DNA of 64,000 bases from Steroidobacteraceae bacterium (GTDB taxonomy: Bacteria > Pseudomonadota > Gammaproteobacteria > Steroidobacterales > Steroidobacteraceae): positions 1 to 64,000 of the forward strand of contig JAQSWD010000018.1 of assembly GCA_029266835.1 (NCBI GenBank). Reading direction: 5' to 3'. Below are positions 16,610 to 34,548 of the stretch, piece after piece. Position 1 is the first letter of the stretch. Every line of letters begins with the position of its first letter. The translations under genes were made by a program, and so were the position numbers. The notes under the pieces were generated by a model, which searched no databases, was not told where the DNA came from, and saw nothing but the letters and a program-made list of their open reading frames with translations.

Positions 16610-16671
16610 ACTACTAGACTTATAGTTGACAAGTCGTCGCTGTCGGCGTTAACTACTAGACATCTAGTAGT
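16610..16671. promoter_or_regulatory. BlaI-type operator region: perfect palindrome ACTACTAGA-CA-TCTAGTAGT (16652-16671) and a degenerate copy (16610-16629)
   Basis: 9-bp inverted repeats directly upstream of a BlaI-family gene. Confidence 0.75.
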
Positions 16672-16683
16672 GAGGCGCCCCAC

Positions 16684-17061
16684 GTGACCAACGACATCTA
16701 TCTCACCGATCGCGAAGCCGACGTCATGCAGGTGCTCTGGGAGCACGGCCCGTCGGTGGTCAACGAGGTCAAGGAGAAGCTGGCCGACGATCTGGCATAC
16801 ACCACGGTGCTCACCATCCTGCGCACGCTGGAGCAGAAGGGGTACGTGAAGCACGAGGAGGAGGGGCGCGTGCATCGCTACTTCGCCACGGTGAAGGAAG
16901 ACGCCGCGCGCAAGAGCGCCTTGCAACACCTCACCGGCAAGTTGTTCAAGGGCTCGGCGGAACTGCTGTTCACTCACCTGGTGTCGGACAAGAAACTCTC
17001 CGCCGACCAGATCCAGCGCATGCGCGAGCTGCTCGCCAGCACCGGGAAGAAGGAGAAGTAG
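16684..17061 (+). CDS. BlaI/MecI/CopY family transcriptional repressor
   Basis: LTDREADVMQVLWEHGPSVVNEVKEKL..YTTVLTILRTLEQKGYVKHEEEGRVHRY. Confidence 0.93.
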   Translation: MTNDIYLTDREADVMQVLWEHGPSVVNEVKEKLADDLAYTTVLTILRTLEQKGYVKHEEEGRVHRYFATVKEDAARKSALQHLTGKLFKGSAELLFTHLVSDKKLSADQIQRMRELLASTGKKEK

Positions 17062-18648
17062 ATGCTGGCCTGGATGTTCTACGCGATCATGGTCTCGCTG
17101 CTGCTGTCGGTGGGCGCGTTCCTCGCCGAGCGCGCGGCGCGGCTCAAGCAGGCGGGCACGCGCTGGGTCTGGATCACCGCCATCGTCGCATCGCTGGTTC
17201 TCCCGACGCTGATGTCGTCGGTCACCTTCGAGGTGCCCGATGTGCTCGGCGACCAGGTGAGCAGCAAGATCGTCGCGCTGCGCCAGACCACCACGCTCAC
17301 GCTCTCTCCCGCCGTGTGGATCACGGGCGAACCGGAGCCGCGGAGCTGGCGCGTCGCCGATGAGACCATCCGCCGGCTCTGGCTGGGCGTGTCCGTCGCG
17401 ATGCTGCTGGCGCTGTTCGCGAGCGGAATCCAGCTGGCGGTCCGCAAGCGCCGCTGGCGGCGCGAAACAGTCGCGGGAATTCCTGTCTACCTGACCGCCG
17501 ACGTCGGCCCCGCGGTGGTGGGCCTGCTGCGCCCGAGCATCGCGCTGCCCGAGTGGGTCGCGAACGCCTCCTCGCAGCACCAGACCTCCGTGCTGGCGCA
17601 CGAACAAGCGCACCTCGATGCACGCGACCCGCAGCTATTCACGTCCGCGCTCGCATTACTGGTCTTCATGCCGTGGAACCTGCCGCTCTGGTGGCAGCTG
17701 CGGCGATTGCGCTACGCCATCGAGATCGATTGCGACGCGCGGGTTCTCAGGGCCGGAGTCGACCCGGCGCATTACGGCGAGACGCTGATCGTCGTGGGTG
17801 AACGTCAGTCAGCGTACATCGGCGCGGTCGCGGCGATGTCGGAATCCAAGTCATTTCTGGAAGAAAGGATCGAACACATGATCAGAAAGCCCGTGAGGTG
17901 GCGCCGGCTGGGCGCGGCCACTCTCGCATCCGTCTCAATCGCCCTGACCGCGGTGGCCGCGCAGGTGGCCCCACCGAACGCGGACGCTCCGGCGCCCGTG
18001 GCCGCGGCGCAGCCCAAACAGGAGCGGCAGGAGATCAAACTACCCGCCGCCACGCTGGATCGGTATGTCGGCACCTACCTGTTCGTCGATGGGCAGGTCT
18101 TCACCGTGACCCGCAAAGGCGACGGCCTGCAGTCACAGATGGCGGGCCAGCCAGCGGTCGACATCTACGCGGAGAGCGATAACGCGTTTTTCCTGAAGGT
18201 GGTGGACGCACAGCTCGTGTTCGCCGACGACGGCGGCCCCGCCAGTTCGGTCACCCTGACCCAGGGTGGCGCCCGCTTCATCCTGCCGCGCGTCGACGAG
18301 GCCAGCATCGCGCAGGCCAAGGCGGAAATAGCCGCCCGCGTCGCGAGCAATACACCTGCTCCCGGCAGTGAAGCGGTGACGCGGAAGTACGTGAACGCAA
18401 TGTCCGCGGGATCGCCCAACTACGAAGACATGGAAAGCCACCTCGCCGAGACCGTGCGGACGCAGTTGCCGCACCTGAAGCAGACCATGGAATTCCTCGG
18501 CGCCATCAAGTCGATCGAATTCGTGAAAGTCGGTGATGGCGGCTGGGACGTCTATCGGGTCAAGTACGCCAATGGAACATTGCTCTGGCGGATCGGCCTC
18601 GCGCCGGACGGCAGGATCAGATATTCCCTGTTGCTGCCGGATGCGTGA
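17062..18648 (+). CDS. M56 family (BlaR1-type) metallopeptidase with C-terminal extracytoplasmic domain
   Basis: SVLAHEQAHLDARDP (HExxH) after N-terminal TMs; adjacent to BlaI gene. Confidence 0.88.
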   Translation: MLAWMFYAIMVSLLLSVGAFLAERAARLKQAGTRWVWITAIVASLVLPTLMSSVTFEVPDVLGDQVSSKIVALRQTTTLTLSPAVWITGEPEPRSWRVADETIRRLWLGVSVAMLLALFASGIQLAVRKRRWRRETVAGIPVYLTADVGPAVVGLLRPSIALPEWVANASSQHQTSVLAHEQAHLDARDPQLFTSALALLVFMPWNLPLWWQLRRLRYAIEIDCDARVLRAGVDPAHYGETLIVVGERQSAYIGAVAAMSESKSFLEERIEHMIRKPVRWRRLGAATLASVSIALTAVAAQVAPPNADAPAPVAAAQPKQERQEIKLPAATLDRYVGTYLFVDGQVFTVTRKGDGLQSQMAGQPAVDIYAESDNAFFLKVVDAQLVFADDGGPASSVTLTQGGARFILPRVDEASIAQAKAEIAARVASNTPAPGSEAVTRKYVNAMSAGSPNYEDMESHLAETVRTQLPHLKQTMEFLGAIKSIEFVKVGDGGWDVYRVKYANGTLLWRIGLAPDGRIRYSLLLPDA

Positions 18649-30700: not shown

Positions 30701-30730
30701 ACCCGCGACCTGCGGCCACTTGCGCTGATT

Positions 30731-30765
30731 ACTACAACTGTCATAGGCTAGGCCACAGTTGTAGT
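30731..30765. promoter_or_regulatory. BlaI-type operator: ACTACAACTGT-N13-ACAGTTGTAGT
   Basis: Perfect 11-bp inverted repeat just upstream of a BlaI-family gene. Confidence 0.75.
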
Positions 30766-30778
30766 GACCGAGACGGCG

Positions 30779-31192
30779 ATGCCCCAGATCCAACCCAAGT
30801 TGAGCGCGCTCGAGCTGCGCATCATGAATGAGCTGTGGACGCGCGGGCCCTGCTCCATCCGCGAGATCCACGAGGCAGTCGTGAAGAAGGATCGCCCCGC
30901 CTACACCACGGTGCAGACCATGGTGTATCGGCTGGAGACCAAGGGCGCGCTGCGGCGCACCCGCAAGATCGGCAATGCGCACGTGTTCGAAGCCACCACG
31001 ACGCGCGCCTCGGTGCAGACACGTCTGCTCAAGGAACTGCTGGGCCTGTTCGGCGGCAGCGCGCGGCCGGTGATGGCGCACCTGGTCGAGATGGGCAAGA
31101 TCTCCAAGGAAGACATCGACGACGCGCAGAAGCTGCTGCGCGAACAGTCGACCCGTGCCGACAAGGACGGGAAGATCAAGGACGCGACATGA
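30779..31192 (+). CDS. BlaI/MecI family transcriptional repressor
   Basis: LSALELRIMNELWTRGPCSIREIHEAV..YTTVQTMVYRLETKGALRRTRK. Confidence 0.92.
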   Translation: MPQIQPKLSALELRIMNELWTRGPCSIREIHEAVVKKDRPAYTTVQTMVYRLETKGALRRTRKIGNAHVFEATTTRASVQTRLLKELLGLFGGSARPVMAHLVEMGKISKEDIDDAQKLLREQSTRADKDGKIKDAT

Positions 31193-32487
31193 CACACGCG
31201 TTGATCAACCACCTGTGGCAATCGACGCTGTTCTGCGCCGTGGTGTGGTTGATCACGTTGACGCTGCGCGCCAATGGCGCGGCACTGCGCCACTCGCTGT
31301 GGCTGATCGCCTCGTTGAAGTTCCTGGTTCCGTTCTCGGCGCTGTACTACCTCGGCACCCTGGCTGGCCTGCCTACCCCTGTCGGCGGCCAGCCATCGTT
31401 GTTGGCGCAGGCGCTCGAAGTCACGACGCCGGTCATCTCGCCGACGACGTCGCTGATCACGCTCTCGCCGGTGTCGACCGCGAACTGGGGATCGTTGTTC
31501 GCGCTGCTCTGGGCGGTGGGCGCGCTGGTGATCGCGCTACGCTGGTTCATGGCGTGGCGCGCGGCTGATTCCATGGTACGAGCGGCGCGGCCGGTGCCGG
31601 GCTCGCTACTGGATGCGCGTGTCACGGACGCCGCCATCGAGCCGGCGGTGGCACGGGTTTTCCATCCAGTGGTGTTGCTGCCGTCCGCGCTGCTCGGGAG
31701 GCTCTCACCGCAGCAGCTGGGCGCCGTGCTGGCGCACGAACGCGAGCACATCGCGCGCCACGACAATCTCACCGCGCACCTGCATCGGCTGGTCCAGACG
31801 CTGTTCTGGTTTCATCCGCTGGTCTGGTGGATAGGCCGGCAAATGCTCGAGGAACGCGAGAACGCCTGCGACGAAGCGGTGCTGGAACACGGGCATGACG
31901 CGCGGGAATACGCCGAGGGAATCCTCGCCGTGTGTCGCCACTGCCATGAGCTCGCGTACGCGGAACACACCGCGTCCGCGATTTCCGGCGACCTCACGCG
32001 CCGCATCCGCGCCATCGTTCGCCACGTGCCGCCGGTATCGCCAGGGTTCTGCAAAGCCTTCGCGCTTTCGGCGTGCACGCTGGCACTGGGTTTCGGCCCG
32101 CTGTTCGCCGGCGCGCTCGATGGCGCTGCGCGGCGCCACGCGCAGGTGATCAGCGACGCGCGCAATCTCGACACGGCGGACATCACTGTCGGCCCTTCAT
32201 CCGAGGGCCTGGGCAGGCGCATGAGGGTGCTGGCCGATGCGCGCAGCGTGACCATCCGCAACAGCACGCTGCGTGAGCTGGTGGCCATGTCGTATGGCGT
32301 CCACCTCGCCGATGTGAGCGGCGGAACCTGGCTCGACAACTCGCGCTACGACATCCGCGTCGAAGCGCACGACACGATGGTGGATCCCGACGACTTCGAT
32401 CCGGTCGCGCTGCGCGGCGTCGTCAACAAGCTGCTCGCCTCACGCTTCGATCTGCAGATCCACGTCAAACCGATGATTTCGCGCTGA
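31189..32487 (+). CDS. M56 family metallopeptidase with C-terminal TIGR03435/DUF3738-like domain
   Basis: LAHEREHIARHDNLTAHLHRLVQTLFWFHPLVWWIGRQMLEERENACDEAVL; C-terminal VTIRNSTLRELVAMSYG...YDIRVEA; ATGA overlap with blaI. Confidence 0.88.
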   Translation: MTHALINHLWQSTLFCAVVWLITLTLRANGAALRHSLWLIASLKFLVPFSALYYLGTLAGLPTPVGGQPSLLAQALEVTTPVISPTTSLITLSPVSTANWGSLFALLWAVGALVIALRWFMAWRAADSMVRAARPVPGSLLDARVTDAAIEPAVARVFHPVVLLPSALLGRLSPQQLGAVLAHEREHIARHDNLTAHLHRLVQTLFWFHPLVWWIGRQMLEERENACDEAVLEHGHDAREYAEGILAVCRHCHELAYAEHTASAISGDLTRRIRAIVRHVPPVSPGFCKAFALSACTLALGFGPLFAGALDGAARRHAQVISDARNLDTADITVGPSSEGLGRRMRVLADARSVTIRNSTLRELVAMSYGVHLADVSGGTWLDNSRYDIRVEAHDTMVDPDDFDPVALRGVVNKLLASRFDLQIHVKPMISR

Positions 32488-32534
32488 CGGTCGCCTGCCG
32501 GAAGCCGCGGTCGCGCAGTCACTTGCCGCTAACT

Positions 32535-32569
32535 ACTACAACTGTATTAGGCATGACCACGTTTGTGGT
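32535..32569. promoter_or_regulatory. Second copy of the BlaI-type operator: ACTACAACTGT-N13-ACGTTTGTGGT
   Basis: Left half-site identical and spacing identical to 30731-30765; 9 nt before the ATG at 32579. Confidence 0.65.
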
Positions 32570-32578
32570 TGCCACGCC

Positions 32579-33544
32579 ATGAACGCGTTGATCGACCATC
32601 TCTGGCAATCGTCGCTGTGCGTGATACTGCTGGGCGGACTGCTGGCCCTGGCGCGCCGGCATTCGGCGCAGGTGCGCCTTTGGCTATGGCGCCTGCTGGC
32701 GATCAAATTCTTAGTTCCCTTCAGCCTGTTCAGCGCCATCGGTGGCTGGTTCGGATTCCCGGCCCGTTTCCCCGGCGACCCGCCGCCCGAGTCCGCGGTG
32801 CGCCTGGTCGACGAGCTTTCGTCATGGTTTTCGATCAGCGCAGCACTCGACGGCGCCGGCTCGACAGGGATCGTGCTGGCGATCCTGCTGGTGGCCGCGG
32901 TGGTCACGGTTCGCTGGAGCTTCTGGAGAATCCACCGCGAATCACTGCGGTCGCGCGTGGAAGAACTCCGCATCGAAGCCGACCCCGACGACCGCGAACC
33001 CAGCCTGGGCTTTTTCCGCGCCGCCTTGTTCACGGCCTGCGCGTTGGCCGTCGTCACCGTGCCCATGATCGGCGGCGCGGTACGCGCCAGCGTCCACGCC
33101 CACCAGGTGCTCGAAGCCAACACGCGCACCATGGGCGAAGCGCGCGTGACGCTCCGGCCCGCGCGGCCCGGCCTGGGCTCGCGCTACTTCGTGAACGTGG
33201 ACGCCCGAGGCGTGACCATCAGCAACATCACCGTTCGGGAGCTGACGGCCATGGCCTATGGCGTCAATCGTTTCTTCGTCCGTGGCAAGCACTTCCGCGA
33301 CGGCGATGACGAGGACTGGCTGGTGGACTCGCGCCATGACGTGCGCATCGATGGGCCCGTGATCGAGCCAGAGCGCTTCGACACCTACGCACTGCGCAAT
33401 GTGATCACGCGCGAGCTGGCAACCACTTTCGGCCTCGAGATCTACGTCAACAGCGAGTGTCAGAAGCCCTGTGGCAAATGGGGTGATCGCGTGCTGCTGC
33501 AGGTGGCGCCCGACTCCTGGGCGCTGGTGGAGACCAAGCCATGA
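32579..33544 (+). CDS. M56-like membrane N-terminus + DUF3738-like C-terminus, lacking the HExxH peptidase lobe (paralogue 1)
   Basis: MNALIDHLWQSSLCVILL..LWLWRLLAIKFLVPFS parallels MTHALINHLWQSTLFC..LKFLVPFS of 31189; C-terminal VTISNITVRELTAMAYG; no HExxH found. Confidence 0.8.
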   Translation: MNALIDHLWQSSLCVILLGGLLALARRHSAQVRLWLWRLLAIKFLVPFSLFSAIGGWFGFPARFPGDPPPESAVRLVDELSSWFSISAALDGAGSTGIVLAILLVAAVVTVRWSFWRIHRESLRSRVEELRIEADPDDREPSLGFFRAALFTACALAVVTVPMIGGAVRASVHAHQVLEANTRTMGEARVTLRPARPGLGSRYFVNVDARGVTISNITVRELTAMAYGVNRFFVRGKHFRDGDDEDWLVDSRHDVRIDGPVIEPERFDTYALRNVITRELATTFGLEIYVNSECQKPCGKWGDRVLLQVAPDSWALVETKP

Positions 33545-33597
33545 GAAACGGGCGCAATTCTTGAAATGGAATGCTCTGCGCGATGACTGGGTGACGT

Positions 33598-34548
33598 ATG
33601 GCGCAACTGATCGATCACGTTTGGCAATCAGCCGGCGTCGTGCTGCTGATCTGGTGCCTGGCCTCGATGACCCGGCGCAACTCGGCCGGGCTTCGCCTGT
33701 GGCTGTGGCGCATCGCCGCGCTGAAGTTCCTCGTCCCCTTCAGCGTCGTGTACGCACTGGGTAGCCGGGTCGGATTTCCCACGCGGCACAGCGCCATTCC
33801 ACCGCCTTCGGGCCTGCTCGACGCGGTGGCATCCGCGACACCCTGGGCGACGCCGATGCAGGTTTTCGCTGCGTCGGGTTTCCCCTTCATCGGCGGACTG
33901 CTGCTGATCTTCGGACTGTCAGCGCTCTGCGTCTGGGCCACTGCTCACGAGTTGCAGCTGGCCGGCCGCCAGCGGACAGAGGAAATCGCGCGCGCCGAAG
34001 GCGATGCATATTGGCAACCCGTACCCCTCGGCATGTTGAAGGCCACCACGCTGGCCGCGGCCGTGTTCAGCAGCCTGGCCGCGCCACTGGTCGCGGGCGC
34101 GCTTCACGACCGCGTATTGCGGCAGGAAGCGCTGGCGCTCGACATCGAATCGCTGCGCACGGCACCCGTCTCGCTGACTGAAGCCAACTGGCGATTCGGC
34201 GACCGGCCGGAAATCCGCGCGGTGGAGGGCGGCGTGACCATCCGCAATGTGAATCTGCAGGACCTGGTGGCGATGGTGTATGGCATCGATCACTTCGAAG
34301 TCTTCGGTGGCGCATTGCCGTGGCTGGAATCGCCTCACTACAACGTCCAGGTGAGTGGCCCGCTGCATGCACCGGGGATGTTCGATCCGTACTCTTTGCG
34401 CCAGCCTGTCACGCAGTACCTGTACGACCAGTACGGCGTGTCGATCCGCGTCAATGGCAATTGCCAGGAGCCGTGCCTGAACCAGGAGTCGTTCGTCGTC
34501 GAGCGCATCCCCTGGACGCTGTCGAAAATGATCTCCGGCAAGAAATAG
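33598..34548 (+). CDS. M56-like membrane N-terminus + DUF3738-like C-terminus, lacking the HExxH peptidase lobe (paralogue 2)
   Basis: MAQLIDHVWQSAGVVLL..LWLWRIAALKFLVPFS; VTIRNVNLQDLVAMVYG; no HExxH found. Confidence 0.8.
   Translation: MAQLIDHVWQSAGVVLLIWCLASMTRRNSAGLRLWLWRIAALKFLVPFSVVYALGSRVGFPTRHSAIPPPSGLLDAVASATPWATPMQVFAASGFPFIGGLLLIFGLSALCVWATAHELQLAGRQRTEEIARAEGDAYWQPVPLGMLKATTLAAAVFSSLAAPLVAGALHDRVLRQEALALDIESLRTAPVSLTEANWRFGDRPEIRAVEGGVTIRNVNLQDLVAMVYGIDHFEVFGGALPWLESPHYNVQVSGPLHAPGMFDPYSLRQPVTQYLYDQYGVSIRVNGNCQEPCLNQESFVVERIPWTLSKMISGKK

Follow-up and report, generated by a model that had tools for sequence, protein, structure and literature searches.

A BlaI-family repressor gene and an M56 receptor-protease gene are followed, in the 64,000-nucleotide stretch of DNA analysed here (the window), by two genes that resemble the receptor and lack its protease lobe, which raises the question of what a proteolytic switch would do with receptor copies that cannot cut. 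A preliminary description of the locus had given its coordinates and reading frames, which proved correct, and had proposed a multi-receptor variant of BlaI/BlaR signalling. The features considered below, with the evidence on which each assignment rests, are the following:

30726..30768, + strand: operator region 5′ of blaI, candidate BlaI-type (pattern matches, layout in relatives)
30779..31192, + strand: blaI-family repressor gene (Penicillinase_R, PDB matches, identity to relatives)
31189..32487, + strand: M56 receptor-protease P0002 (Pfam, NCBIfam, AlphaFold2, Foldseek, BlaR1 alignment, motif positions)
32529..32574, + strand: operator 5′ of lobe-less paralogue A, candidate BlaI-type (pattern matches, G002 ortholog)
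32579..33544, + strand: lobe-less paralogue A, P0003 (alignment, AlphaFold2, orthologous copies in G001 and G002)
33598..34548, + strand: lobe-less paralogue B, P0004 (alignment, tree)

The repressor encoded at 30779–31192 matched Pfam Penicillinase_R above the cut-off (5.7e-24), its PDB sequence matches were BlaI/MecI, and it shared 75–82% identity with the BlaI of two relatives from the same genus (G001 and G002). An alternative GTG start at 30764 is also open, but lies inside the second operator dyad, and comparison with the relatives makes the ATG at 30779 the likely start. The M56 gene, starting at 31189, overlaps the blaI stop codon, which ends at 31192. Its product, P0002, scored 116.9 bits against Pfam Peptidase_M56 (cut-off 31), 26.7 bits against Pfam DUF3738 (cut-off 22), covering only the first 62 of 190 model positions, and 43.2 against NCBIfam TIGR03435 (cut-off 40), covering only the first 97 of 241. 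Its earlier characterization as a complete M56 protein with an HEREH site and a DUF3738/TIGR03435-like C-terminus was thereby upheld, the C-terminal domain being partial. The motifs H183EREH and E224xxxD228 align with the zinc ligands (H201/E242) and the gluzincin Asp of S. aureus BlaR1, and R271/R272 align with its Arg293/294. An AlphaFold2 model of P0002 (pLDDT 86.9) matched BlaR1 (8ext) in a Foldseek search of the PDB with E 2.7e-5 and probability 1.00, with low whole-chain TM-scores (0.34/0.28). P0002 thus combines four TM helices with a partial DUF3738-type extracytoplasmic domain; no penicillin-binding sensor domain was detected in Pfam or NCBIfam, the C-terminus being of the DUF3738/TIGR03435 type.

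Subsequently, we compared the two downstream proteins with P0002. Both aligned with it over its full length but for a single gap of 143 columns, where the protease lobe lies, and neither contained HExxH, in agreement with the initial report that a lobe of about 140 residues was absent and that an M56-like N-terminal TM region and the C-terminal module had been kept. The same report had the last TM helix replacing the lobe; this does not hold, as P0002 carries the same helix behind its lobe, so that the paralogues have lost the lobe alone and still have four TM helices. A hydropathy scan likewise placed four TM segments in each of P0002, P0003 and P0004. The AlphaFold2 model of P0003 (pLDDT 83.2) has long helices at residues 2–24, 30–45, 96–134 and 145–185, then a beta-rich C-terminal domain, and in the P0002 model the helices follow the same order with the protease lobe inserted between the last two long ones. 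The last TM helix is thus retained in the lobe-less proteins without the a9 segment, which holds R271/R272 in P0002, and the scaffold signature residues HxWQS, R, W, K, P and G are invariant among them. Standard models recognized these proteins poorly: P0003 had no Pfam match, P0004 reached 17.9 bits against Pfam M56, below the cut-off of 31, and the TIGR03435 matches of P0003 and P0004 remained below threshold (E 0.13 and 9e-5, respectively). An N-terminal M56-type profile, into which both sequences had gone, recovered P0003 at E 5e-34 and P0004 at E 3e-37 in a genome search; the sub-threshold Pfam M56 match of P0004 and the alignments with P0002 do not depend on that profile. Unrelatedness to M56 N-termini, checked by profile and alignment, can be set aside, and P0003 and P0004 are by these comparisons true M56-receptor paralogues minus the protease lobe, linked to BlaI. 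Foldseek found nothing like the lobe-less model among solved structures, nor a match there for the sensor-domain fold, while in the PDB sequences the lobe-less profile matched designed coiled coils, which were dismissed as compositional. We also observed a C-x3-C motif (CQxPC) near the C-terminus (P0003 residues 294–298, window 33458–33472) that is invariant in all four lobe-less proteins described below and present in the G002 M56 protein, and is absent from the M56 proteins of the window and G001 (two of three).

The order blaI, M56-DUF3738 gene and one lobe-less copy was found in both relatives, G001 and G002, the latter a single-contig closed chromosome of 4.65 Mb. An assembly artefact or decay was ruled out by this closed genome, and the gene at this position carries no HExxH lobe in either relative. 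Given this recurrence in two other genomes, the arrangement is far beyond chance. In the tree, the four lobe-less proteins formed one ancient clade (support 100/99), whose sister group is the genus's own three M56 proteins, with a joint clade at 99/98. All four frames are open over 312–321 codons in three species, at a protein identity of 33–45%, and the copy number varies from two in the window to one in each relative. The pN/pS of the lobe-less genes was 0.69–0.80, with pS at 0.58–0.60 and near saturation, so that these ratios overstate the true ones; BlaI gave about 0.3 and M56 about 0.5. By these values the lobe-less genes are the fastest-evolving of the locus, yet they are kept. Between M56 and lobe-less proteins, mean identity was 37% in the sensor vs 29% in the N-terminal TM part; among M56 orthologues the order was opposite (45% vs 56%). 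This comparison draws on twelve pairwise values that share sequences and are not independent, and serves as a hint rather than a test. The better-kept sensor hints that a shared ligand may matter more than a tight TM interface.

We then considered how far such proteins extend beyond the genus. We searched 217 genomes of the family, 369 sampled from the class and 396 from the Acidobacteria with a profile built from the four lobe-less proteins. Full-length matches were confined to the genus, where three of its four genomes contained them; the fourth, without a match, is 67% complete. A broader N-terminal profile, applied to the family and the Acidobacteria, recovered 99 ORFs with lobe and HExxH (counts include repeat loci), and apart from a few broken M56 fragments the only matches without a lobe were the four proteins. 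Every intact-frame M56-type N-terminus examined there, save these four, has the lobe and HExxH, and a search for M56 N-termini without HExxH, of the kind suggested at the outset, thus returned only four intact proteins, all of them BlaI-linked. A profile scan of genome contigs returned the G001 copy and acidobacterial M56 proteins, and nothing else. Among the papers searched, our literature search found no text mentioning DUF3738 or TIGR03435 and no description of the arrangement blaI, M56, lobe-less gene.

The sequence upstream of blaI and of paralogue A bears on the role of the lobe-less genes. A dyad, TACTACAACTGTCATAG, lies at 30730–30746, 5′ of blaI, faced some 20 bp downstream by a copy, CCACAGTTGTAGTG, and another, TACTACAACTGTATTAG, at 32534–32550, 5′ of paralogue A, with a second dyad, GACCACGTTTGTGGTTG, in the same region; the sites at 30730 and 32534 share TACTACAACTGTNNTAG. 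Exact matches to the dyad pattern occurred in the window against 0.07 expected by shuffling (both strands, up to three mismatches). Paralogue B begins 53 bases past the end of A and has no dyad of its own; A and B are probably co-transcribed. The dyad layout upstream of blaI is identical in G001, and the first dyad is also present in G002, where the orthologous position before the lobe-less gene reads TACTACATATGTGGTTG. In a scan of the G002 genome, the blaI and lobe-less sites were the only ones with at most one mismatch, with a pattern that was built from this locus, so that the scan shows where else it occurs and is no independent discovery. A wide regulon was rejected: the loose pattern yielded fewer matches than a reversed control, and weak sites therefore mean nothing. 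The lobe-less gene of G001 directly adjoins the M56 gene, and its sole dyad-like sequence lies within the coding start, which makes separate control uncertain in that genome; an exact 12-base match, TACTACAACTGT, at L015:3951-3962, inside the 5′ coding part of the lobe-less gene, is possibly a candidate operator shifted into the gene. No sigma-70 promoter close to the consensus emerged from a simple scan; by eye only, TTGC-type −35 boxes stand some 4–5 bases before the dyads. As matching candidate dyads precede blaI and the lobe-less gene, the latter occupies the slot of a regulated target, and the lobe-less genes are likely the BlaI-regulated output of the switch, not extra input receptors beside it. 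This repressor-site placement is the main new point, the preliminary description having had no operators. Its term multi-receptor remains apt for several proteins sharing one kind of sensor domain, and in no further sense.

In another genus of the family (g4), an identical or near-identical dyad lies in the stretch that separates blaI from a divergent MotA/TolQ/ExbB-family gene (L081, L083, L084 and L085), without a lobe-less copy at these loci. The site thus goes with this lineage of BlaI, and the gene beside it varies by genus. As a separate observation, the g4 placement is a hint that M56-DUF3738 sensing may be connected to envelope energisation, the MotA/TolQ/ExbB family being one of proton channels. 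The window itself holds a second BlaI/M56 pair at 16654–18648 (BlaI at 16684–17061; M56 with a DUF3471 domain at 17062–18648), preceded immediately at 16654 by TACTAGACATCTAGTAG, a palindromic dyad of different sequence, so that two BlaI switches with distinct operator sequences stand 14 kb apart. A third M56 protein of this genome (L018:3725-5314, G000:C66) is a fusion to a transglycosylase SLT domain.

The staphylococcal and B. licheniformis systems BlaI/BlaR1 and MecI/MecR1 share with the window locus a BlaI-family repressor, a receptor of the M56 gluzincin type that has four TM helices and carries a C-terminal extracytoplasmic domain, and dyads before the repressor gene and an adjacent target gene. 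Unlike BlaR1 and MecR1, the window receptor has no penicillin-binding sensor domain, and the target next door is a lobe-less receptor copy rather than beta-lactamase (blaZ) or PBP2a (mecA), as in staphylococci. The mec locus has a third component, MecR2, an anti-repressor that binds MecI directly (PMC3406092). Like MecR2, the lobe-less genes would be additional genes modulating a BlaI/MecI-type switch; MecR2 is not described as a receptor copy (PMC3406092), whereas the lobe-less proteins are receptor paralogues. Set against these systems, the window locus is a novel version of the BlaI/BlaR1-type switch, whose function we infer from sequence.

We propose, at a probability of about 0.42, that the repressor controls protease-dead receptor copies which bind the same ligand as the receptor and thereby limit and end the response. 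A periplasmic ligand would engage the DUF3738-type domain of the M56 protein, whose protease lobe would then cut BlaI, opening the promoters of both blaI and the lobe-less gene. The induced lobe-less proteins would take up the same ligand as the M56 protein, and may also pair with M56 protomers via the common membrane scaffold, giving dimers unable to cut BlaI; either way, these pseudo-receptors would limit and end the response. BlaR1 cuts BlaI directly, and its dimer is domain-swapped via helix a9 and the last TM helix, with Arg294 of a9 extending to the active site of the other protomer (PMC9834060). Since the lobe-less proteins have neither the lobe nor the a9 arginine, a mixed dimer would be expected to cut poorly, with one side lacking an active lobe and the other lacking the partner arginine. 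The loss of the lobe with the rest kept, the single clade and the dyads in the window and G002 speak for such pseudo-receptors. Conversely, their fast evolution also fits weak constraint, and the TM part, being less well conserved than the sensor between M56 and lobe-less proteins, argues against a strict heterodimer interface. The uncertain separate control in G001, the promoter scan without a near-consensus match and the lack of a solved structure resembling the lobe-less model also count against the proposal; the sensor/TM pattern makes ligand uptake at least as likely as mixed dimers.

Other functions would suit parts of the same evidence. The lobe-less proteins could be protective effectors, membrane-anchored periplasmic binders that sequester or pass on a harmful ligand with no feedback role, analogous to beta-lactamase in the staphylococcal system. 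Their place in the target slot, the sensor as their best-kept part, the C-x3-C shared by all four and missing from two of three M56 proteins, and the quite different gene that the same operator precedes in g4 would agree with this; a plain binder, however, would not need a full four-helix receptor scaffold with invariant signature residues, and we regard the idea as rather unlikely. Scaffold and sensor, being common to M56 and lobe-less proteins, would also serve co-receptors that pair with the M56 protein to widen or sharpen sensing and raise the signal, and BlaR1 does act as an intimate dimer (PMC9834060). With both lobe and a9 helix gone, a mixed dimer would instead be less active, and a sensing gene is not expected behind its own repressor operator, separate from that of the blaI-M56 operon, which leaves co-receptors improbable. 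Least probable of all are duplication relics drifting under weak constraint: fast evolution and variable copy number would fit, but four intact frames across three species at this divergence, invariant residues in the TM and sensor parts, and operators that have been kept do not.

A parallel from another phylum bears on the proposed feedback by protease-dead receptor copies. In an acidobacterial MAG (L020:5456-11671), blaI, two M56-DUF3738 genes and two genes for lobe-less DUF3738 proteins have adjacent or overlapping frames. The latter proteins are 44–46% identical to the adjoining M56 protein and have kept the sensor together with the last TM helix, without the lobe or the N-terminal TM helices. 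Acidobacterial DUF3738/TIGR03435 and M56-DUF3738 proteins share with the window the kind of extracytoplasmic domain and the order blaI, M56; there DUF3738 is full length and the stand-alone proteins have no N-terminal TM helices, whereas in the window the domain is partial and the scaffold complete. Stand-alone members of TIGR03435 are already known as a family of paralogues (NCBIfam model type 'paralog'). In L020, lobe-less sensor proteins seem to have arisen independently, again behind a switch of this kind. That built-in negative feedback, through ligand uptake and non-cutting mixed dimers, evolved at least twice is a more doubtful proposition, which we hold only tentatively.

To our knowledge, few BlaI/M56 switches have an established ligand or target beyond the beta-lactam cases. 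If the proposed role is true, the lobe-less proteins would represent a pseudoprotease feedback element in bacterial proteolytic signalling. The locus would offer a clean natural test of two points: whether both protease lobes are required in a BlaR1-type dimer, and what is bound by DUF3738-type domains.
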